This document shows, in pieces, positions 4,153 through 15,041 of a DNA stretch of 64,000 bases. A program made the position numbers and the translations under genes. The stretch lies in NCBI RefSeq assembly GCF_000711295.1, contig NZ_JOMJ01000003.1, positions 2,243,501 to 2,307,500 of the forward strand. The letters are read 5' to 3'. A model generated the notes under the pieces. The model ran no database searches. It saw nothing but the letters and a program-made list of their open reading frames with translations, and had not been told where the DNA came from. This stretch comes from Desulfohalovibrio reitneri (GTDB lineage Bacteria; Desulfobacterota; Desulfovibrionia; Desulfovibrionales; Desulfovibrionaceae). The first letter of the stretch is position 1; the number at the start of each line of letters is the position of its first letter.

Positions 4153-4181
4153 TTGACCTCTGTGCAACTCGGTTGCATAAC
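4153..4181 (+). promoter_or_regulatory. znuA promoter with embedded Zur-type palindromic operator
   Basis: A -35 box TTGACC (4153-4158) is followed after 17 nt by CATAAC (4176-4181). The spacer contains the inverted repeat TGTGCAACTCGGTTGCATA (4161-4179), with perfect TGCAAC/GTTGCA half sites around a 3-nt centre. A repressor bound here would block RNA polymerase. A Fur-family gene (zur-like) closes the same operon, so zinc-dependent autoregulation is the natural reading. Because the site lies between divergent genes, it may also control the DUF318 permease. The palindrome is observed; the assignment to Zur is inferred. Confidence 0.65.
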
Positions 4182-4223: not shown

Positions 4224-5264
4224 ATGAACAAACTATCCGGATTGCTGCTTGCGCTGTTTCTGCTGCTCCCCGCCCCGGCCGCCGCAGAAGGGCTGTCCGT
4301 GGCCGTGTCCATCCCGCCGCAGGAGTATTTCGCCCGCGCCATCTGCGGAGAGCGGCTGGAGGCGCTCACGGTCATGGTGCCACCCGGCGCCGAGCCCCAC
4401 GCCTACGAGCCGTCGCCCCGCCAGGTGGGCTCCCTTTCGGAAGCGGATGTCTATTTCGCCGTGGGCGCGCCCTTCGAGCGGGCCTGGCTGGAACGTTTCG
4501 GCTCCATCAGCCCGGCCATGCGGGTGGTGCATACGGACAGCGGCATCGACAAAATTCCCATGGGGGAGAGCGGCCACGAGGGGCACGGCCATGAAGCCCA
4601 CGGTCATGAGGAACACGGCCACGGCGAACACGGCCACGGCGAACACGGCCATGGCGAACACGGCCACGGCGAACACGGCCATGGCGAACATGGCCACGCG
4701 GAGCACGGCAATGATGCGCATGCTCATGAATCCCACGGCCATGGGGAGCCCGGCCGCGAAGCCCACGGCCACGGAGCGTACGACCCCCACGTCTGGCTGG
4801 CGCCCGAACCGGTGCGGGTCATCGCGGACAACATGTTGGCCGCGCTGGTTGAGGCGGACCCGGCGGGCGCGGAGGCGTACCGCGCGGGCCACGCCCGGCT
4901 GCTGGAGGAGGTCGCGCGCACGGACCGCGAGGTGCGGAACATCCTGGCGGACGTCCCCCGGGGGGCGGCCTTCCTGGTCTACCACCCGGCCTTCGCCTAC
5001 TTCGCCCGGGCCTACGGGCTGAGGGAGGTGGCCATCCAGCAGGCGGGCAAGGAGCCCAGTCCCCGCCGCTTGGCCGAGTTGACGGAAATGGCCCGGGAGA
5101 AGGGTGTGGAGGCCATCTTCGTGGAGCCGCAGTTCTCCACCCGGGAAGCCTCGATCATCGCGGACCGCATCGGCGCGGAGGTGGTGGAGGCCGACCCCCT
5201 GGCGGCGGACTGGCCGGACAACCTCAAGCGGCTGGCGCGCGCCTTCCGCTCGGCGGCCAAATAG
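4224..5264 (+). CDS. znuA: Zinc ABC transporter substrate-binding protein
   Basis: A 346-aa periplasmic solute-binding protein of the ZnuA/TroA cluster. A signal peptide (residues 1-21, ending PAPAAA) precedes the mature domain. PPGAEPHAYEPSPRQ supplies the first metal-binding histidine, and YDPHVWLAP and VYHPAFAYFARAYGL supply the others. Between them lies a very long His-rich loop (~113-185), built largely from HGHGE repeats encoded by 15-nt tandem units. ZnuA proteins use this loop to collect or sense zinc, but this one is unusually long and regular. GGAG lies 6 nt before the ATG. It is first in the znuA-znuC-znuB-zur operon. Confidence 0.95.
   Translation: MNKLSGLLLALFLLLPAPAAAEGLSVAVSIPPQEYFARAICGERLEALTVMVPPGAEPHAYEPSPRQVGSLSEADVYFAVGAPFERAWLERFGSISPAMRVVHTDSGIDKIPMGESGHEGHGHEAHGHEEHGHGEHGHGEHGHGEHGHGEHGHGEHGHAEHGNDAHAHESHGHGEPGREAHGHGAYDPHVWLAPEPVRVIADNMLAALVEADPAGAEAYRAGHARLLEEVARTDREVRNILADVPRGAAFLVYHPAFAYFARAYGLREVAIQQAGKEPSPRRLAELTEMAREKGVEAIFVEPQFSTREASIIADRIGAEVVEADPLAADWPDNLKRLARAFRSAAK
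4611..4700 (+). repeat. 15-bp tandem repeat inside znuA
   Basis: Five near-identical copies of a 15-nt unit of the type gaacacggccacggc run head to tail, alternating acggc/atggc, followed by a decayed sixth copy. Each copy encodes five residues of the His/Gly/Glu-rich metal-binding loop. Such units can expand or shrink by slippage or recombination, which would change the loop length without disturbing the frame. Confidence 0.9.
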
Positions 5265-5280
5265 GGCAGGGTTTCCGGAC

Positions 5281-6042
5281 ATGTCCATCGACGTCGACCA
5301 CCTGAGCTTCTCCTACGACGGCCGCCCCGTGCTGCGGGACGTCTCCCTGCACCTGGGGGAGGGCGAGTACCTGGCCGTGCTGGGCCCCAACGGCGGCGGC
5401 AAGACCACCCTGCTCAAGCTGCTGGTGGGGCTGCTGCGGCCGGACGAGGGGGAAATCCGCCTCTTCGGCAAGCCCCCGGGCAAGGTCCTGGACCGTGTGG
5501 GCTACGTGCCCCAGCACGGCGAGGGCAACCGGGCCTTCCCCGTAAGGGCGCTGGACGTGGCGCTCATGGGGCTGCACCTGCACCGGCCCGGCAAGGGCGA
5601 CCGGGAGCGCGCCATGGAGGCGCTTAAGCGGGTGGAGATGGCCGACCGGGCGGAGCGGCTCTTCGCCGACCTCTCCGGCGGCGAGGCCCAGCGGGTGCTC
5701 ATCGCCCGCGCCCTGGCCTCGCGGCCCGACCTGCTGCTGCTGGACGAGCCAACCTCCTCCATCGACCCCCACGGCCGTTTCTGCTTCTACGAGTTCCTGG
5801 CCGGGCTGGCCCGGGACACCACCGTGGTGGTGGTCTCCCACGACCTGTCCATCATGGCCTCCGGAGTCACGGCCGTGGCCTGCGTCAACCGCCGCCTGCT
5901 CTACAATCCCTCCCCGGAGCTGACCCAGGAGATGCTCTCCCTGCTCTACGGCAGCCACGAGCACACCTGTCCCGCGGACACCTACATGCGTGCCGTGACC
6001 AGCCTGCCGGACCTGCGGGTCCGGGAGTGGGAGGACGCGTGA
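5281..6042 (+). CDS. znuC: Zinc ABC transporter ATP-binding protein
   Basis: A 253-aa ABC ATPase. It has Walker [10 protein letters not shown] (~37-45), signature LSGGEAQR (~133), Walker [11 protein letters not shown] and switch histidine VVVSHD. The C-terminal extension after the ABC core carries [10 protein letters not shown], a small His/Cys cluster seen in metal-type ABC ATPases. It begins 16 nt after the znuA stop and energises zinc import with ZnuB. Its stop overlaps the znuB start (GTGA). Confidence 0.95.
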
Positions 6043-6866
6043 GCGACCTGCTCCAGGCCTTGTCCTTCCCCTTCATGCAAAACGCCCTGGCCGCCGGGGT
6101 GCTGGCCTCCATCGCCTGCGGGCTGGTGGGCTGCCTGGTGGTGGTCAACCGGCTGGTATTCCTGGCCGGGGGGGTGGCCCACGCCGCCTACGGCGGGGTG
6201 GGGCTGGCCATGCTGGCCGGGCTGCCGGTGCTGCCCGCGGCCGTGGGCTTCTCCCTGGCCTCGTCCACGGCCATGGCCGCGGCCACCCGCCGCCACCCCC
6301 AGCGGGCGGACACGGTCATCGGGGCCATGTGGGCGCTGGGCATGGCCTTCGGCATCGTCTGCGTGGACTTCGCCCCGCAGCACGCCGGGGGGCTCATGTC
6401 CTACCTCTTCGGCTCCATCCTCACCGTCTCGCGGGGCGACCTGCTGGCCATCGCCCTGCTTACCCTGCTGATCACCGGGCTGTGCCTGCGCTTCTACCGT
6501 GACTTCCTGGCCTTCTCCTTCGACCGCGAATTCGCCCGCACCAAGGGGGTGCCCGTGACCCTGCTGCACTATCTGCTCCCGGCCATGACCGCCCTGGCCG
6601 TGGTCATGGTGGTGCAGGTGGTGGGACTCATCCTGGTCATCGCCCTGCTGACCATCCCCCCGGCCCTGGCCGAGCGGCGCACCCGCTCCCTGGGCTCCAT
6701 GATGGCCCTGGCCTCGGTCCTGGGAGCGGCTTTCTGCGTGCTGGGGGTGCTTGCGGCCTACCTGTTGGATGTGACCTCCGGCGCGGCGGTCATCGGCCTG
6801 GCCGGACTTTGCTACCTGGCCGACTTGGCCCTGGGCGGAAGAAAGACCCCGGAGGCGAGGGTATGA
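6039..6866 (+). CDS. znuB: Zinc ABC transporter permease
   Basis: A 275-aa hydrophobic protein of the ABC-3 family with about eight transmembrane helices. It contains the family signature region LVGCLVVVNRLVFLAGGVAHAAYGG-like (~27-50) and the conserved LLHYLLPAMTALAVVMVVQVVG segment. It is the membrane channel for zinc entry with ZnuA and ZnuC. A GTG start overlapping the znuC stop was chosen, because GGGAGGA lies just upstream and the next in-frame start is only four codons earlier. Its own stop overlaps the zur ATG (ATGA), so the last three genes are translationally coupled. Confidence 0.93.
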   Translation: MSDLLQALSFPFMQNALAAGVLASIACGLVGCLVVVNRLVFLAGGVAHAAYGGVGLAMLAGLPVLPAAVGFSLASSTAMAAATRRHPQRADTVIGAMWALGMAFGIVCVDFAPQHAGGLMSYLFGSILTVSRGDLLAIALLTLLITGLCLRFYRDFLAFSFDREFARTKGVPVTLLHYLLPAMTALAVVMVVQVVGLILVIALLTIPPALAERRTRSLGSMMALASVLGAAFCVLGVLAAYLLDVTSGAAVIGLAGLCYLADLALGGRKTPEARV

Positions 6867-7285
6867 CCGAGTCCCGCCTGCGCCTGGCAGGGCTGGAGCC
6901 CACCGCCAACCGCTCCCTGGTGCTGGACCTGCTGCACCGGGCGGAGGGGCCCTTGAGCGCGCCGGAACTGCTGGCGCGGGTGGAGGGGCGCATGAACAAG
7001 GTCACGCTCTACCGCATTCTGGACCTGCTCACCCGGCATGGGCTGGTGCTCAAGCACCAGGGCTCGGAGGCGGCCCATTTCTGCGCCGGGGTGCTCACCC
7101 AGCCCGTGGACCAGGGGCCGCGCCGCCACGGCCACTTCCATTGCCGCCGCTGCGGCCGATGCTTCTGCCTGGGGCCGGAGAGCCTGCCGCCCGCGCCGGA
7201 GCCGCCGCCCCCGGCCGCCAGCGTGGACGAGGTGGGCCTGACCCTGTCCGGGGTGTGCCGCGACTGCGAAAAAACCTCCGCCTGA
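6863..7285 (+). CDS. zur: Fur-family regulator, Zur-like
   Basis: A 140-aa Fur-superfamily repressor. The N-terminal winged-helix region (~1-75) contains KVTLYRILDLLTRHGLV. The C-terminal half carries the regulatory and structural metal ligands HGHFHCRRCGRC and VCRDCE, that is two CxxC pairs forming the structural zinc site. It is co-transcribed with znuACB and overlaps znuB by 4 nt, so zinc is the likely co-repressor and the palindrome at 4161-4179 the likely target. The dimerisation region is rather Pro-rich (PPAPEPPPP), which is unusual. A Fur or PerR role is less likely given the context. Confidence 0.85.
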   Translation: MTESRLRLAGLEPTANRSLVLDLLHRAEGPLSAPELLARVEGRMNKVTLYRILDLLTRHGLVLKHQGSEAAHFCAGVLTQPVDQGPRRHGHFHCRRCGRCFCLGPESLPPAPEPPPPAASVDEVGLTLSGVCRDCEKTSA

Positions 7286-7345
7286 CTGCCCGCTTTTTCC
7301 AGCCAAGGGTTCCCTTCCAGCACCCTTTGGGCGTACTATGGAAAT

Positions 7346-8524
7346 ATGACACAGCCCCGCGAACCCCTCACCGCCGCCTGGGCGGAATCCCTGAGCGATG
7401 TCCGCCGCGAGGACTGGGAGCGCTTCCGGCCCGGCACGCCCTTCATGCGCTGGGATTGGCTGCGGCTTCTGGAGGAAACCGGCTGCGTCACTCCCGGGAC
7501 CGGCTGGCTGCCCAGGCATCTGCTGCTGCACCGGGGCGGAGAGCTGGTGGGGGCCGCCCCCATGTACGTGCGCACCAACTCCTCCGGGGAGTTCGTCTTC
7601 GATCAGGTCTGGGCGGAGGTGGCCGCCCGCATCGGGCTTTCCTACTACCCCAAGCTCACGGCCATGAGCCCCTTCACCCCGGCCACGGGGTACGAGCCCC
7701 TGACCGCGCCGGAAGCCGACACCGAGGACGTGTTCACCCGCGTGCTGGACGAGGCCGAGGCCTTCGTGCGCGGCCACGGCCTGTCCGGGCTCAACGTCAA
7801 TTTCGCCTCCCCGCGCTTCGCCGAGGCGGCGGAGCGGGCGGGCATGGTCCGCTGGGAGCACCAGGGGTTCGTCTGGAGCAACCCCGGCTACGCCTCGTTG
7901 GACGAGTTCCTGGCCTACTTCCGCCGCTCCCGCCGCCGCAACGTGACGCGGGAGCGCAGGGCCCTGCGGGAGCGGGGCGTGCGGGTGGAGATGGTTGAGG
8001 GCGCGGACGTGTCCGATGCCTGGGTGGAGTGGCTGTACGCCATCTACGAGCGCACCAACGCCAAGTTCGGCCCCTGGGGCTGCCACTACCTCAACCGCGA
8101 TTTTTTCCAGGGCATATTCCGGGAGCTGCCGGAGAATCTGGTGGTGGCCGGGGCCACCGAGGGCGGGCGGGAGCGCCCCCTGGCCATGGCCCTTTTCGCC
8201 AAGCAGGGGGAGCGGTTGTGGGGCCGGTATTGGGGCTGCTTCGAGGAAGTCCCGGGGCTGCACTTCGAGGTCTGCTACTACACCCCCATGGAGTATTGCA
8301 TAGAGCATGGACTGCGGGAGTTCGACCCCGGCATGGGCGGGGCGCACAAGGCCAGGCGCGGTTTCGCCTCGCGCAGCGCCTACTCCCTGCACCGCTTCAG
8401 CGATCCCCGGCTGCACGCCCTGTTGCGCCGCCACATGCCGGAGATCAACTCCCTGGAGCGGACCCACGTTGCCGAGCTCAACGAACTGCTGCCGTTCAAG
8501 GAGTGGACCGCGGGGCGGTCTTGA
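7346..8524 (+). CDS. DUF482/peptidogalycan-type GNAT acyltransferase
   Basis: A 392-aa soluble protein resembling the DUF482 family (FemAB/GNAT fold). Early PFMRWDWLRLLEETGCV and GGELVGAAPMYVRTNSSGEFVFD are family hallmarks. The C-terminal half carries LAMALFAKQGERLWGRYWG and FEVCYYTPMEYCIEHGLREFDPGMGGAHKARRGF-type segments (split here for brevity). The substrate is unknown; relatives are annotated as peptidogalycan biosynthesis proteins or N-acetyltransferases. It stands alone on the plus strand 60 nt after zur; only a weak ribosome site (GGAAAT) precedes the ATG. Confidence 0.8.
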   Translation: MTQPREPLTAAWAESLSDVRREDWERFRPGTPFMRWDWLRLLEETGCVTPGTGWLPRHLLLHRGGELVGAAPMYVRTNSSGEFVFDQVWAEVAARIGLSYYPKLTAMSPFTPATGYEPLTAPEADTEDVFTRVLDEAEAFVRGHGLSGLNVNFASPRFAEAAERAGMVRWEHQGFVWSNPGYASLDEFLAYFRRSRRRNVTRERRALRERGVRVEMVEGADVSDAWVEWLYAIYERTNAKFGPWGCHYLNRDFFQGIFRELPENLVVAGATEGGRERPLAMALFAKQGERLWGRYWGCFEEVPGLHFEVCYYTPMEYCIEHGLREFDPGMGGAHKARRGFASRSAYSLHRFSDPRLHALLRRHMPEINSLERTHVAELNELLPFKEWTAGRS

Positions 8525-8574
8525 CGGGGGAAGCGGGCATTCGTAGGAGGTACATTGCCCATCCGAGGAGCCCC

Positions 8575-8922
8575 ATGCAAGAGACCATCCGCCAAGCCTT
8601 CGATCCCCACGCCCGCATCTTCAAAGCCCTGGGCCACCCCGCCCGGCTGTTCATCGTGCACCAGCTCTCCCTGCGGGGGGAATGCGGCGTGGGCCACCTG
8701 CGCGACGCCCTGGAACTGGACATGTCCACCGTGTCCAAGCACCTCTCGGTGCTGCGCGAGGCGGGGGTGGTCGCCTCCACCAAGCGCGGCAGCGCTGTGC
8801 TCTACCGGGTGGCCATGCCCTGCGTGCCGCACTTCATGGACTGCGTGGACGCGGCGCGGCGCGGGGAAGAGGCCGAGCCCGCCTGCGACTGCGCGGCTCA
8901 GTCCACCCTGAAGGGTTCGTAG
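8575..8922 (+). CDS. ArsR-family winged-helix regulator
   Basis: A 115-aa protein with a clear ArsR HTH: FKALGHPARLFIVHQL, then the recognition helix region DMSTVSKHLSVLREAGVV and a wing at KRGSAVLYRV. C-terminal cysteines (MPCVPHFMDCVD, ACDCA) could form a metal- or thiol-sensing site. The classical CVC motif in the recognition helix is absent, so it is not a standard arsenic sensor. GAGGAG lies 6 nt before the ATG. Its 3' end overlaps that of the convergent phosphoglycerate-mutase-like gene by 25 nt. The target gene is not evident. Confidence 0.88.
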   Translation: MQETIRQAFDPHARIFKALGHPARLFIVHQLSLRGECGVGHLRDALELDMSTVSKHLSVLREAGVVASTKRGSAVLYRVAMPCVPHFMDCVDAARRGEEAEPACDCAAQSTLKGS

Positions 8923-10232
8923 GGCGCGGGCCAGGCCCAGGCCGGGACCGGGGTCTCGCGCCAGCCGGCCAGGCGGGAGCGGTCCAGCAGGTCCAGAAGC
9001 AGGGCGAAGAATTCGGTGGAACGCAGCAGCGCCCGCGCCTCGGACTCCTGGAAGGAGGTCCCGGCGCAGCAGCGCACGCCAGGTCCGTGCAGCAGCACGG
9101 GATAGGGTTCGCCGGTGCGGATGAGCCGCCCCGAGGCGGGAGCGCCCGGCCCGGCCGCTATGCCCACCAGCGGCCGCCTGCCGGCCACGGTCATGGAGGG
9201 CAGGTTTTCCGCCAGGGCCGCGTCCAGGCTTTCCAGGGCGCGTTTCTTGCGGCCCGGCGATTTGGCCCGGGCGGCCCGGAAGCAAGCCCGGCTGTGCACA
9301 ACCACCACCCGCGTGCCCTGTTCGAACAACTCCCTGGCCCAGCCAAGGCGGCGGGCCAGGTCCTCCCCCGCCTCGCCCCGGTCCGGGTCGTGGCGGAAGG
9401 CCAGCCCCATGTCCCGGGCGGCCCCGCCCAGGGCGGCCAGCGGGGAGACCAGTCCCCCCTCCATGCAGAAGCGATTCAGAAAGGAAAGCGAGGGGGTCTG
9501 GCGGCCTCCCGCGCGGGTGAGCAGGGCGTTCACAGGGGGCTCGTCGCGCTCCTCCCGCAGGCGGTTGAATTCCAGGCCGGAGAGGGTGCTGTGCGCCCGG
9601 GCCAGGTACTCTCCAAGGGCGCGGGCCGTTTCCTCGGCGATCATGGGCGCCCCGTCGAGGGCCATGGGCCTGGCCAGGGGCAGCCCCTCGGCCAGGGGGT
9701 CCACGTCGGTCACGCGCTCGTCCGCCGCGCCGCGCAGGATGAGGGCGCCGTCCAGCCCCTCGGTGTGCACGAGCTGGAATTCTACGCCGCGCAGGGTGGC
9801 GGGCTCCAGGGACCTGAACAGATCGGCGCAGGCCTCGCCCGTGCAGGCGTGGGCCGCCTCGTCCGGCTCGTCGGTGGAGGAGGGATCCTCGTCGATGAGC
9901 ACCAGCGCGCCGTCCTCCTCGCGCTCAACCGAAGCCAATCTGGCGGAGAAAACCACGTCGCCCTGGGCCAGGTCCATGCCCGAGCCCAGCGCCGAGAGCA
10001 CGCCCAGGCTGGGGGCGTGGTGCGCGCCCATGCCCAGCAGAGGGTAGAGGGCGGACTCCACGGGCAGGGGCTGGCCGGGATCGGTGGGGTGATGCAGCCA
10101 CACGCTGCCCTGGCGGGCCAGGGAGTCCAGAAAGGGGGTGGCCGCGGCCTGCAGCGGAGTGCGGCCATCCAGGCCGGGGTGGGCCCGGTCGGCCGCGCCG
10201 TCGAGAAGGATGATCAGGCAATTGCGGGGCAT
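8898..10232 (-). CDS. ApgM-like phosphoglycerate mutase homologue, apparently catalytically degenerate
   Basis: A 444-aa protein that matches the archaeal-type cofactor-independent phosphoglycerate mutase (ApgM) in its N-terminus: LIILLDGAADR, then TPLQAAATPFLDSLARQG. The key elements that follow look eroded. The segment aligned to the usual SD-x-A nucleophile region reads PVESALYPLLG. The usual aspartate/histidine metal site (D..GH) reads FRAARAKS. The usual GDHSTP metal motif reads AAGPGAPAS. If this alignment holds, only the first aspartate remains, so mutase activity is doubtful and a non-enzymatic or changed role is likely. It ends in convergent overlap with the arsR-type gene. Confidence 0.75.
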   Translation of the reverse strand: MPRNCLIILLDGAADRAHPGLDGRTPLQAAATPFLDSLARQGSVWLHHPTDPGQPLPVESALYPLLGMGAHHAPSLGVLSALGSGMDLAQGDVVFSARLASVEREEDGALVLIDEDPSSTDEPDEAAHACTGEACADLFRSLEPATLRGVEFQLVHTEGLDGALILRGAADERVTDVDPLAEGLPLARPMALDGAPMIAEETARALGEYLARAHSTLSGLEFNRLREERDEPPVNALLTRAGGRQTPSLSFLNRFCMEGGLVSPLAALGGAARDMGLAFRHDPDRGEAGEDLARRLGWARELFEQGTRVVVVHSRACFRAARAKSPGRKKRALESLDAALAENLPSMTVAGRRPLVGIAAGPGAPASGRLIRTGEPYPVLLHGPGVRCCAGTSFQESEARALLRSTEFFALLLDLLDRSRLAGWRETPVPAWAWPAPYEPFRVD

Positions 10233-10310
10233 GGGGAAAGCCTAGCGGCAAACGGACTCGGAGGGAAGGGATTATACCTTCTCCCGGAGCGTTCGCGGGC
10301 GGGAAGGTCC

Positions 10311-10460
10311 TCAGACTTTGATGTCCAGCCGCTGCCCCTTGTCCGGCTGCTGCGCCTGCTGGGACTGCTGCCCGTGTTCGAGGGTGCCCTGAATGACCCG
10401 CATGGAAAGCTGCGCCTGGATGGCGCTGGTGGCCTTGGCGGCCACTTCCTGAATCTCCAT
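10311..10460 (-). CDS. YjfB-like small protein (49 aa)
   Basis: A 49-residue protein with the sequence pattern MEIQEVAAKATSAIQAQLSM, followed by a Gln-rich linker and an ending RLDIKV. This matches the YjfB family of short proteins found near motility and chemotaxis genes. AGGGAG sits 5 nt before the ATG. It is divergent from the chemoreceptor at 10652, which fits a motility context. Function is unknown; the size and helical start suggest a small adaptor or structural peptide. Confidence 0.7.
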   Translation of the reverse strand: MEIQEVAAKATSAIQAQLSMRVIQGTLEHGQQSQQAQQPDKGQRLDIKV

Positions 10461-10651
10461 ACAACTCCCTTTCGAATCCTATCGGACGATGCTGTCCCTG
10501 ACTTGAGGGGGCGGGGCGGATTTCCGCATACCGCAAGGATTTCCCGGGGGCGTTTGATTATTGGCGGTCCGACCTTGCCCTTGAATGCCCGTATGGTATG
10601 GATATACCCTGCGAAACATATCCTGAACGATCGTGCAAAAGGGCGGGCGAG

Positions 10652-12763
10652 ATGAGCTGGAAGAACATTTCCCTCAAGGGCAAGTTCGGAGTCGGATTCG
10701 GTGCGGTGCTGTTGCTGCTGCTGTTGGTGGGAGGCTGGGCCTTCCTCGGCGTGGGTGACATCACCGAGAACGCCGAGGAGGTCATCCACGGCAACGAGTT
10801 GCGGGGCGAGTTCACCTCGCGGCTGGTGGACCACTTGGAGTGGGCCGAGGCGGTGAGCGTCTTCGTCACCGACGACGAGCAGAACACGCTTGACGTGCAG
10901 CTGAACCCGCGCGAGTGCGGCTTCGGCAAGTGGTACTACGGCCAGGGCAGGCAGGAGGCCGAGGAGATGGTGCCGGAAATCCGGTCCGTCATGGCCGAGG
11001 TGGAAGAACCCCACATCCACCTCCACGAATCGGCCCGCGAGATCAAGGAGGTCTATACGCCGGTGGACACCGGGTTGGGCACCTTCCTGGCGGACAAGCA
11101 GAACGACCACCTGCGCTGGACCCACAAGGTCAAGGACGCCCTGCTGGACCCTTCCATCACGCAACTCGGCGTGGAGACCGACTGGACCAAGTGTTCCCTG
11201 GGCAAGTGGCTCTACTCCGACGAGACCAAGGCAATGGCCAGGGAGAACCCCGGTTTCGGGCAGGCCATTGAGGGTATATACGACCCGCACAAGCATTTGC
11301 ACCAGAGCGCCATCACCATCCAGGAGCTGATCGACCAGAACGATCGCGTCCAGGCGGAACAGGTCTTCCGAGGTGAGACCGAGACGGCCGCGGACGAGAC
11401 CCTGGCCGGTCTGGACGAGGTGAGGGAGTGGTACGAGGCGCGGCGCGAGGGCTACGAGAAGGCCATGGCGATCTATGCCCAGAAGACCCTGCCAAATCTG
11501 CAGCAGGTCAAGGAGCTGCTGAACCGCGCCGAGACCACGGTCGAAGAGAACGTCATGACCGACAAGGAGATGCTGCAAGCGGCCTCCACCACGCGCATGG
11601 GCGTGGAGTGGCTGGCTGGAAGCGCCCTGGTCATCGGCGTGCTGCTGGCTTGGGTCATCGCGCGCGGCATCCTCCGCCCCCTCATGGCGAGCATGGGCTT
11701 CGCCGACGAGATCGCCGAGGGCGACCTGACCGCCAACGTGCACGTCTACCAGAAGGACGAGATAGGCCGCATGGCCGAGACCCTGCGCACCATGGGCGGG
11801 CGCCTGGCCGAGGTGGTGGGCGAGGTGCGGGAGGCCTCGGAGAACGTGGCCTCCGGTTCCGAGGAGCTGTCCGCCACGGCCCAGAACCTCTCCCAGGGGG
11901 CCAGCGAGCAGGCCGCCAGCGTGGAGGAGATTTCCGCCTCCATGGAGCAGATGGCCGCCAACATCGGCCAGAACACGGACAACGCCCGCCAGACCGAGAC
12001 CATGGCCACCAAGGCCGCGGACAACGCCAAGCGCGGCGGCGAGGCTGTGGGCCGTACCGTGTCCGCCATGCGCGACATCGCCGAGAAGATCACCATCATC
12101 GAGGAGATCGCCCGGCAAACCAACCTGCTGGCGCTCAACGCCGCCATCGAGGCGGCCCGCGCGGGCGAGGCGGGCAAGGGCTTCGCCGTGGTGGCCGCGG
12201 AGGTGCGCAAGCTGGCCGAGCGCAGCGGCGAGGCCGCCGGGGAGATCACCGAGGTCTCGTCCTCCTCCGTGGAGACCGCCGAGGAAGCGGGCAAGCTCAT
12301 CGACCAGGTGGTGGAGGACATCACCAAGACCGCCGACCTGGTGCAGGAGATCGCCGCCGGGTCCGAGGAGCAGAAATCCGGGGCGGAGCAGATCAACAAC
12401 GCCATCCAGCAGCTGGACCAGGTGGTGCAGCAGAACGCCTCCGCGGCCGAGGAAATGGCCTCCACCTCGGAGGAGTTGTCTTCCCAGTCGGAGCAGTTGC
12501 TCTCCACCATCTCCTTCTTCAAGCTGGAGACCAGCCACGGTTCCGGAGGGCGGCAGCGCAAAGCCGCCACGGCCGGGACGTCCCGCCAGGCGTTGCCGCA
12601 GGGTGGCGAAAACAAGCCCGGGAAGAAGCCGGCCGCCCAGGGCAACGGCAATACCCGCGCCAAGGGCGGCGCCGGACAGGGCGGCGAGGGCAAATCCGGC
12701 TCCAAGGGCTTCTCCTACGACATGGACGAGAGCGGCGAGGACGACGAGTTCGAGCGCTTCTAG
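10652..12763 (+). CDS. Methyl-accepting chemotaxis protein with two periplasmic CZB domains
   Basis: A 703-aa chemoreceptor. TM1 is at ~11-34 and TM2 at ~319-338; HAMP follows (~340-390), then a long methylation/signalling domain with the hairpin tip [20 protein letters not shown]. The region between the membrane helices holds two copies of a CZB-like pattern: H61-x2-W, C89-GFGKW, H121/H125; and H153-x2-W, C181-SLGKW, H213/H217. CZB domains bind zinc and are usually single and cytoplasmic. The C-terminus ends DDEFERF, an aromatic-x-x-aromatic tail of the CheR-tether type after a Gly/Lys-rich linker. The start was placed at MSWKNIS; 18 further upstream codons are open but lack the typical positive start. 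A strong terminator follows. Confidence 0.93.
11827..12520 (+). repeat. Copy 1 of long DNA repeat shared by two chemoreceptor genes
   Basis: The signalling-domain DNA of this chemoreceptor is nearly identical to 14140-14833, including uninterrupted identical runs of roughly 90-100 nt. The sensor-domain DNA of the two genes is unrelated. This indicates duplication or gene conversion restricted to the signalling half. Confidence 0.9.
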
Positions 12764-12800
12764 CCGCTTCCGGCCTCCAGGCCGGACCAACCGACGCGAC

Positions 12801-12833
12801 AAGGCCCGGGGACGTCGTCCCCGGGCCTTTTTT
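12801..12833 (+). terminator. Rho-independent terminator after first chemoreceptor
   Basis: A GC-rich inverted repeat (AAGGCCCGGGGAC / TCCCCGGGCCTT) with a 4-5-nt loop is followed by a run of T. It lies 38 nt after the stop codon and separates the two chemoreceptor genes, so the second needs its own promoter within 12834-13022. Confidence 0.92.
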
Positions 12834-13022
12834 CGCGTCCGCCCGGCGCGGCCTCCGGGACGGGCGTTATATTTTCATGCACAACCGTTCAGTTATCATG
12901 GCGAGTCTGTCAGTATGCCTGTAATCACGATTTCGTCCGCGAGACACGGTACGGAAAACGGCGCGTTCGCGCCTCGCTCCGCGTGTGCCGCGCAATCCAC
13001 GGACATTCGAAAGGGGGCCTTC

Positions 13023-15041
13023 ATGTTCAAGAATATGTCGTTGGCCAGGAAGCTCATCCTGGGATTCTGCGCCGTGCTGGTGCTGCTGGTGGTGCTGGGA
13101 ATCGTGTCCTTCAGGGCGCTGACCTCGGCCACGGACGGGTTCACCGATTACCGGGAGCTGGCCCGGGACTCGGTGCTGGCCGGGCGCGTGCAGGGCAACA
13201 TGCTTATGCTGCGCATGCAGGTGAAGGACTACATTTTGAGCGGCGAGCAGAGCGAGCGCCGCGAGTTCGACGAGTATATGACGGCCACCCAGGGCTTCCT
13301 CGAGGAGGCCAAGGGGCGCATAAGCGACCCGGAGCGCGCGTCCATGATCGCCAAGGCCGATCAGAAACTGGACACCTATCAGAAGAGCTTCGGCGAGGTG
13401 GTCAAGCTCATGGACCGCCGCGATGAACTGCTCCAGGGCGTCCTCGCCCCCGAGGGCGCGGCCATGGAGCGGAACCTCGCGGAACTCATGCGCACGGCCG
13501 AGGGGGACGGCGACTCCGCGACGGCCTACCACGCCGGGCTGACCCTGCGGCACCTGCTGCTGGCCAGGCTGTACGTCGTCAAGTTCCTGGAGAGCAACGA
13601 CCAAGCGGACGTGGACCGGGTGCGCGACGAGTTCGAGGTGATGGACGAGGAAATGGCGGCGCTGGAACGCGCGATACAGGACGCGGAGCGACGCGGGCTG
13701 CTGGCCGGGACCATTGAAAGCCGGGATCGCTACACGTCCACGTTTTTCGATGCCTTCGTCCCGGCCATCTTCGAGCGAAACCGCCTCATCGAGGACAGCC
13801 TGGACCGCATCGGGCCGGAGGTGGCCGGACTGACCGAGGACGTCAAGCTGTCCATCATCGAGGACCAGAACCAGCTTAGCTCCAGCGTGCAGCAATCCAA
13901 CAGGTTCACCATACGCCTCATCGGTATCGTCTCCGGAGCGGCCCTGCTCTTCGGCGCGCTCATGGCCTGGCTCATCATCCGCGGCGTCTCCGCCCAACTC
14001 GGCCGCGACCCTTCGGTGGTGGCTAACATCGCCGAGAGCATCTCACGTGGCGACCTGAGCACACGCTTCGACCAGGACAAGGTGCGTGGCGTGTACGCCT
14101 CCATGAAGGACATGTCCGATGCCCTGACCGGTGTGGTGGGCGAGGTGCGCTCCGCCTCGGAGAACGTGGCCTCGGGTTCCGAGGAGTTGTCCGCCACGGC
14201 TCAGAGCATCTCCCAGGGGGCCAGCGAGCAGGCCGCCAGCGTGGAGGAGATTTCCGCCTCCATGGAGCAGATGGCCGCCAACATCGGCCAGAACACGGAC
14301 AACGCCCGGCAAACCGAGTCCATGGCCACCAAGGCCTCGGACAACGCCAAGCGCGGCGGCGAGGCGGTGGAGCGCACCGTTTCGGCCATGCGCGACATCG
14401 CCGAGAAAATCTCCATCATCGAGGAGATCGCCCGGCAGACCAATCTGCTGGCGCTCAACGCCGCCATCGAGGCGGCCCGCGCGGGCGAGGCGGGCAAGGG
14501 CTTCGCCGTGGTGGCCGCGGAGGTGCGCAAGCTGGCGGAGCGCAGCGGCGAGGCCGCCGGGGAGATCACCGAGGTCTCGTCCTCTTCGGTGGAAACCGCC
14601 GAGGAAGCGGGCAAGCTCATCAGCCAGGTGGTCGAGGACATCTCCAAAACCGCCGACCTGGTGCAGGAGATCGCCGCCGGGTCCGAGGAGCAGAACTCCG
14701 GCGCGGAGCAGATCAACCAGGCCATCCAGCAGCTGGACCAAGTGGTGCAGCAGAACGCCTCCGCGGCCGAGGAGATGGCCTCCACCTCGGAGGAGCTGTC
14801 CTCCCAGTCGGAGCAGTTGCTCGCATCAATCTCCTTCTTCAAGCTGGGCATGGGCGACGGCCGGGACAGGCCGAAGGCCGCGCCCGCCAGACGTGAGGCC
14901 CTTCCCCGGGGGGACGAGACGGCCGCGAAAGGCAACGGAGCCAAGCGGGCCTCCCCCCCGGCCGCCAGGGGCGGACAGGATGGCGGGGGAGCCGGGTACG
15001 CCTACGACATGGACGGCGACGACGAGTTCGAACGGTTCTAG
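13023..15041 (+). CDS. Methyl-accepting chemotaxis protein with helical (HBM-like) sensor domain
   Basis: A 672-aa chemoreceptor with TM1 at ~9-31 and TM2 at ~300-320. About 265 mostly helical periplasmic residues lie between them. The region near [20 protein letters not shown] resembles the start of HBM (helical bimodular) sensor domains of the McpS type, which bind organic acids; the ligand here is unknown. The HAMP region contains [13 protein letters not shown] and GDLSTRF, the form usual for that receptor class. The signalling domain is almost identical to that of the upstream receptor, and the tail again ends DDEFERF. AAAGGGGG precedes the chosen ATG. A terminator follows. Confidence 0.92.
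14140..14833 (+). repeat. Copy 2 of long DNA repeat shared by two chemoreceptor genes
   Basis: This is the partner of 11827-12520. Differences are mostly scattered third-position changes; several blocks, for example around the signalling tip, are identical at the nucleotide level. Both copies lie in the same orientation about 2.3 kb apart, so recombination between them would delete the first receptor's tail and the second's sensor, giving a chimeric receptor. Confidence 0.9.

Follow-up and report, generated by a model that had tools for sequence, protein, structure and literature searches.

A Desulfohalovibrio reitneri chemoreceptor with two predicted periplasmic CZB modules, a candidate sensor of labile zinc

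The window analyzed here, a stretch of 64,000 nucleotides from Desulfohalovibrio reitneri (assembly GCF_000711295.1, contig NZ_JOMJ01000003.1, positions 2,243,501 to 2,307,500), carries a chemoreceptor gene with an unusual sensor. The ATG at 10652 agrees with the M-x-W-K-N start found in relatives. Its features, in positions of the window, are as follows.

10652-12763, + strand: chemoreceptor gene, 703 aa, order TM-CZB-CZB-TM-HAMP-MCP
10691-10747, + strand: TM1, residues 14-32, hydropathy 2.42
10832-11044, + strand: CZB module 1, Pfam span residues 61-131, 52.9 bits (cut-off 29.4)
11108-11320, + strand: CZB module 2, Pfam span residues 153-223, 48.8 bits (cut-off 29.4)
11345-11551, + strand: long last helix of the sensor, residues 232-300, present in both predicted models
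11603-11659, + strand: TM2, residues 318-336, hydropathy 2.08
11702-11809, + strand: HAMP, residues 351-386, 32.4 bits (cut-off 25)
12002-12424, + strand: best stretch of the MCP signalling domain, residues 451-591, 126.5 bits (cut-off 34.6)
12746-12760, + strand: C-terminal EFERF, which fits the CheR/CheB-docking pentapeptide, with aromatic residues at positions 2 and 5 (rule from PMC7390727, excerpts)

With two transmembrane segments by hydropathy, a HAMP domain and an MCP signalling domain, the protein has the parts of a membrane chemoreceptor. Since the CZB pair lies between TM1 and TM2, it is predicted to be extracytoplasmic. This receptor was the only CZB protein found in the genome (96.9% completeness), which also gave 21 MCPsignal matches, 19 of them above the cut-off, and 11 CheW-domain matches.

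An earlier note on this DNA had proposed two CZB repeats between TM1 and TM2, naming their cysteines and histidines. All of these residues were found in the translation of the ORF where the note had put them, and Pfam placed two CZB stretches (PF13682) in the same interval of the whole protein (91.5 bits, E 4e-26). The profile search that the note had suggested also gave a match above the cut-off for each module alone, scored within its own genome (52.9 and 48.8 bits). Aligned with each other, the two modules show 33% identity (E 4e-10); both carry the CX(L/F)GXW(Y/L) motif as defined in PMC8262984 (excerpts), in the form CGFGKWY in module 1 and CSLGKWL in module 2. C89 and C181, spaced by 92 residues, are the only cysteines of the protein; its histidines include 61, 121, 125, 153, 213 and 217, among others. 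Together these residues make up a predicted core of three His and one Cys in each module (H61, C89, H121 and H125; H153, C181, H213 and H217). They are listed below with the number of relatives that keep them, among 85 ORFs in the best 80 of 293 loci of the scan described further on.

10832-10834, + strand: H61, predicted ligand of module 1, kept in 84 of 85
10916-10918, + strand: C89, predicted ligand of module 1, kept in 84 of 85
11012-11026, + strand: H121 and H125, predicted ligands of module 1, each kept in 84 of 85
11108-11110, + strand: H153, predicted ligand of module 2, kept in 83 of 85
11192-11194, + strand: C181, predicted ligand of module 2, kept in 84 of 85
11288-11302, + strand: H213 and H217, predicted ligands of module 2, kept in 85 of 85 and 84 of 85

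The same 3His/1Cys sites might serve to sense another metal, such as iron, nickel, cobalt or copper, and CZB proteins have indeed been tied to copper, nickel and iron responses. However, the literature, in the excerpts of PMC8262984, treats CZBs as zinc proteins and these other responses as possible effects on zinc, and we regard a sensor of another metal as very improbable.

The note was right that CZBs are usually cytoplasmic: Perkins et al. (2021) counted 384 putative periplasmic CZBs, about 3.9% (PMC8262984, excerpts). In the survey of Ortega et al. (2020), 184 CZB receptors bore the pentapeptide, and 61% of them had the CZB at the N-terminal side (PMC7390727, excerpts). Periplasmic or N-terminal CZB receptors have therefore already been counted in print, and the location itself is known. 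The receptors in these two papers resemble ours in having the CZB before the signalling domain, a 3His/1Cys site and the Cys motif; they differ in that double or triple modules are not mentioned in the excerpts, though such proteins may be present, without comment, in their data sets. In listings and excerpts of the open-access literature, we found no sensor described as having two or three CZB modules, and the two CZB domains of PMC12871147 (excerpts) are those of the DgcZ dimer. By this literature, the tandem and triple build appears to be new.

Two AlphaFold models of the sensor were made, from a 19-row and an 80-row alignment; residue 1 is protein residue 6 in the first model and protein residue 34 in the second. 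Mean pLDDT was 89.9 and 92.6, and pTM 0.71 and 0.83, respectively. Both models predict a long first helix, short helices past the Cys loop and a helix bearing the His-x3-His motif, then a repeat of this order, and finally a single helix of 69 residues (227-295 in the first model, 199-267 in the second). The note had asked for a check of the four-helix bundle, and module 2 answered to it. In the first model, module 2 together with the first half of the final helix aligned with the CZB of Escherichia coli DgcZ (3t9o) at Z 12.7 and rmsd 2.5 over 116 residues, and residues 105-230 of the second model (protein 138-263) aligned with 3t9o_B at Z 13.1 and rmsd 2.4 Å, with 116 of 120 residues aligned. 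The sensor of MCP2201, a four-helix domain that binds citrate and malate, scores level with 3t9o or above it (Z 13.1 with the first model, 13.4 with the second), so the match shows the fold class and not a CZB in particular. Module 2 and DgcZ have the same ligand set; DgcZ differs in being cytosolic, in having a single CZB that pairs with its partner in the dimer interface and in driving a diguanylate cyclase.

Module 1 had no CZB structure match of its own in the alignments of the second model. Four-helix proteins (4zvc and apolipoprotein E) aligned with residues 16-266 of that model, that is, with the first and last helices together, from which we infer that the last helix would close module 1 with its far half, module 2 being stacked upon it. 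For the whole sensor, the alignments with those of McpS, PilJ and TorS were loose (Z 8.7-12.4, rmsd 4.8-15.7); for McpS (2yfa) the values were Z 12.4 and rmsd 9.6 with the first model and Z 11.6 and rmsd 9.8 with the second. These Z scores come from a realignment of Foldseek's own match list, and Foldseek itself gave no match at E ≤0.001 for either model. Helical bundles can reach such scores through their arrangement alone and match one another easily, as vinculin and apolipoprotein rows also reached Z 8-10 with the second model. A PDB sequence search with alignment A1 (the window protein and 18 relatives, chosen by a motif pattern requiring both modules; L011 was dropped, its TM1 not being seen) returned no CZB structure and one match, at E 0.75.

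McpS (an HBM receptor), PilJ and TorS may, by this loose alignment, have in common with the window sensor a stack of helical bundles in which the first and last helices are long. They differ in their ligands, and the window protein gave no Pfam match to HBM (PF16591) at E up to 1 and none to PilJ. We know of no CZB metal motifs in these three sensors. The likeness of the whole sensor to them, and of module 2 to MCP2201, would suit a protein in which the metal only holds the bundles together, the stimulus being a small acid, as for McpS and MCP2201, or a periplasmic binding protein, as for TorS with TorT.

A scan of the genomes of 84,980 species with the tandem sensor gave 293 relatives, of which the best 80 loci (hereafter the wide loci) were analyzed; they hold 85 ORFs with CZB modules. 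The order TM-CZB-CZB-TM was found in 82 of these 85 ORFs, the other three having no second TM by hydropathy, and this recurrence indicates that the arrangement is more than chance; since the 80 loci are the best of 293 found with a tandem query, they do not give a rate. By record title, the hosts among these best 80 loci include Desulfovibrio and relatives, Desulfuromonadales, Desulfobulbaceae, Magnetococcales, Bacteroidota (Carboxylicivirga, Labilibacter), Spirochaetes, Nitrospirota, SAR324, Latescibacterota and further groups; since metagenome bins make up most of the named records, some lineage labels may be wrong. In the host's order, some CZB match was present in 123 of 199 genomes. The tandem was found in all 40 loci taken from 40 of those genomes (the near loci), which had been chosen mostly for two matches about 276 bases apart. 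Four receptors are common to the near and wide sets.

All eight predicted ligands were kept in 83 of the 85 relatives in the best 80 of 293 loci; because the two scan patterns both derived from module 1, the conservation of that module is partly by construction, while module 2 was not used in the scan. One exception is L056, with Gln at the H153 position. The other is a degenerate tandem-CZB copy (L110:9012-10094, - strand), a 361-aa frame without an MCP part in which most of the metal ligands are gone; it lies near an intact tandem receptor. In the 80-row alignment, made of the window protein and 79 of the 84 printed segments (the five omitted segments include L056), just 16 columns were invariant. 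The eight ligands are among them, and no second invariant cluster was seen in this alignment, which argues against a zinc that merely supports a binding site elsewhere. DgcZ also counts against a purely structural zinc, as there zinc inhibits and its occupancy is the signal (PMC8262984, excerpts).

The conserved cysteines raise another alternative, a direct sensor of oxidants or thiol redox state, in which zinc would stay in place as a cofactor, and the reaction with oxygen species, hypochlorous acid or sulfur species would fall to the Cys thiolate or to a C89-C181 disulfide. Both cysteines of the window protein are predicted ligands, and only two cysteines are present in the stop-to-stop ORF of 27 of the 85 relatives (best 80 of 293 loci). 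Hypochlorous acid oxidizes the CZB cysteine of DgcZ, with release of zinc, and the cysteine of TlpD is likewise oxidized (PMC8262984, excerpts). However, C89 and C181 lie in two separate predicted bundles, hypochlorous acid from host cells would be an improbable cue for sediment bacteria, and the Salmonella receptor McpA responds to zinc depletion alone, besides hydroperoxides (PMC13370339, preprint, excerpts). We consider direct sensing of an oxidant unlikely and favor zinc itself as the stimulus.

The number of modules is not fixed at two. In a spread sample of the host's phylum, alignment A1 gave a match at E 1e-25 in at least 38 of 297 genomes, and in at least 13 of the 297 a match, as read from the rows, spanned the whole tandem query in one piece, with no more than 7 candidates scored per genome. 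Rows overlapping in profile positions pointed to extra modules. Among 20 stretches from the matching genomes, eight had three in-frame module matches, nine had one, and three (L157, L162 and L168) were partial or altered. In six of the eight three-module receptors (L156, L158, L159, L160, L161 and L163), we found three Cys and three His-x3-His motifs at a pitch of 91 residues; in the other two, L166 and L167, the Cys and His-x3-His motifs are present only in the middle module, and L166 has no second TM. The module of L174, one of the nine single-module receptors, has no Cys motif. L157 (954-3683, + strand) has a first module without metal motif, an inserted stretch that we take to resemble a Cache domain, and a second CZB module.

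The modules without metal motif kept in L157, L166, L167 and L174 count against the zinc reading and are in keeping with bundles that serve another stimulus. Set against the invariant ligands and the precedent of DgcZ, this leaves a purely structural role of zinc as a quite unlikely explanation, and we retain a sensor that reads zinc.

In a tree of 181 modules, all 85 second modules stood on one side of a branch (support 0.86), and all 85 first modules stood with three other modules, probably single periplasmic ones, on one side of another (support 0.81). This separation makes one old duplication the likely origin of the tandem form, as judged from sequence. The separation became blurred when singles and triples were added: the best second-module split took in 8 cytoplasmic and 11 triple modules, the widest groups had a support of 0.04, and the middle modules of the triples fell in two places.

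The earlier note had also pointed to zinc-uptake genes close by. Their coordinates, with those of a possible operator, are given here.

4163-4177, + strand: TGCAAC-N3-GTTGCA, a perfect palindrome before znuA and candidate Zur operator
4224-7285, + strand: znuA, znuC, znuB and a FUR-family regulator (Pfam), neighbours of the receptor

ZnuA (4224-5264) contains a long repeated His-Gly-rich loop. The distance of 3.4 kb given in the note was correct, as the FUR-family gene ends 3,367 bases before the receptor, and Pfam confirmed all four proteins. Membership of the receptor in this local zinc-uptake regulon, whereby it would be made under zinc starvation so that cells swim towards zinc, would fit this proximity. 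A parallel exists in Vibrio cholerae, where Zur controls energy taxis via AerB (PMC8248653, excerpts); AerB is like the window receptor a chemoreceptor tied to zinc status, and differs in being a PAS receptor whose tie to zinc is transcriptional, through Zur and VerA. However, three genes intervene, encoding a FemAB-like protein, an ArsR-type protein and, on the opposite strand, a relative of phosphoglycerate mutase.

For linkage in relatives, ZnuA, ZnuC, ZnuB and the FUR-family protein of the window, along with four other neighbours, served as tblastn queries (E 1e-8) against flanks of about 10 kb at most (less than 8 kb in 13 of the 80 wide loci), from which diverged regulators could escape. 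In the fetched flanks, ZnuA was found beside none of the 40 near receptors and one of the 80 wide ones, and Zur beside none of the 40 or the 80. The sole case, L035, has a ZnuA relative with 44.6% identity over 157 aa, which speaks for the regulon. ZnuC-like matches occurred in 8 of 80 wide loci and 1 of 40 near loci at 27-35% identity, a level that ABC ATPases in general might reach. With up to one mismatch allowed, the znuA palindrome occurs just once in the genome; at up to three mismatches the window holds 8 matches against a mean of 20 in shuffles, and none lies near the receptor.

Since the linkage is not conserved in the fetched flanks of relatives and the palindrome is absent at the receptor, the zinc-gene neighbourhood is probably a matter of chance for this question, and the clue to zinc chemotaxis that the note had drawn from it is not supported. 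With no candidate operator of the znuA type at its promoter and no conserved zinc-uptake neighbourhood in these flanks, we consider it highly unlikely that the receptor belongs to the local zinc-uptake regulon. On the domain evidence alone, zinc chemotaxis remains plausible.

The output of the receptor family, like its architecture and ligand conservation, is read from sequence and points to chemotaxis. Among the 85 relatives of the best 80 of 293 loci, 50 have the MCP tip motif and 30 of the other 35 a Pfam MCPsignal match, 80 of 85 in all. Six relative ORFs are shorter than 520 aa: four end at a contig edge, one in masked bases, and one is the degenerate copy of L110. Of the 76 relatives whose end is complete, 50 carry a pentapeptide-like C-terminal motif. 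Genes of one CheW-like cluster, of which the one member scanned by Pfam was CheW (126.7 bits), lie in the fetched flanks at 17 of the 80 wide loci (best 80 of 293); in 10 of those 17 (for example L051, L055 and L083) at most 200 bases separate the gene from the receptor ORF, on the same strand. The same clustering found members of this cluster in none of the 40 near loci.

We propose that the window receptor is a periplasmic sensor of labile zinc for chemotaxis, a reading to which we give a little better than even odds (about 0.55). Each predicted CZB bundle would hold one metal ion, most likely Zn2+, through three His and one Cys. Module 2 would form the outer bundle and module 1 the inner one, which the last helix would close with its far half on the way to TM2. 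The zinc occupancy of both sites would set the helix packing, and TM2 and HAMP would relay a change in packing to the MCP tip and on to CheA/CheW. The working stimulus would be the level of labile zinc outside the cytoplasm.

Sulfide binds zinc strongly, so labile zinc should shift across redox boundaries in sulfidic sediment, and many hosts of the listed relatives presumably live in sulfidic or redox-boundary places. In such habitats labile zinc would follow sulfide and oxygen, and the response would amount to a redox-linked zinc taxis. Zinc as the metal, its occupancy as the switch, this redox meaning and the sign of the response are inferred.

Among known systems, H. pylori TlpD and Salmonella McpA are, like the window receptor, chemoreceptors controlled by a CZB; they differ in being cytosolic with one CZB, which is C-terminal to the signalling domain in TlpD, McpA being described as similar in architecture. 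McpA is reported to mediate attraction to zinc-depleted buffer and to steer cells to zinc-depleted and oxidized places via zinc availability; the authors read its answers to hydroperoxides and to zinc depletion alone as zinc speciation (PMC13370339, preprint, excerpts). The zinc signalling of DgcZ and McpA, the chemistry of sulfide and zinc and the habitats of the hosts lead us to prefer a labile-zinc sensor over the oxidant and structural-zinc readings. Further points count against it. The functional CZB precedents that we found, in the excerpts available, are all cytosolic proteins. In addition, the affinity of DgcZ for zinc is subfemtomolar (PMC8262984, excerpts), and a periplasmic site of such affinity would stay filled unless weakened.

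In the excerpted literature, CZB sensing has so far been worked out only in cytosolic proteins, which zinc or oxidants from outside would have to reach by way of the cell. With a CZB pair lying beyond the cytoplasm, the environment would be read directly, and the idea of zinc as a messenger could be put to a clean test. The double and triple forms in distant lineages, many of them from sediments and redox boundaries, suggest a shared steering cue that these excerpts do not describe, and the module number provides a natural series for how stacked bundles combine signals.

More tentatively, and with clearly less confidence than for the single receptor, we suggest that periplasmic CZB receptors could form an extensible family of one to three stacked zinc modules at a pitch of 91-92 residues. 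The module number might tune the range or cooperativity of the zinc response, and bacteria of sulfidic sediments and redox boundaries might find their depth by external labile zinc under the control of sulfide and oxygen.

Some further observations concern individual receptors. The tandem-CZB receptor of L047 (9968-12280, + strand) has a Cys-rich C-terminal extension. L098 carries two adjoining tandem-CZB receptors of 909 and 981 aa (6787-9513 and 9941-12883, + strand), both with additional sequence from TM2 to the signalling tip. In the window itself, the next chemoreceptor gene (13023-15041) matches the four-helix sensor family 4HB_MCP_1 (36.3 bits, cut-off 27); its score against the helical bimodular domain stays below threshold (19.2 bits, cut-off 29.8). 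Over 725 bp of the signalling region (11803-12527 and 14123-14847), the two genes are 93.5% identical at the DNA level; as the sensors differ beside near-identical signalling regions, this looks like recent copying or gene conversion.
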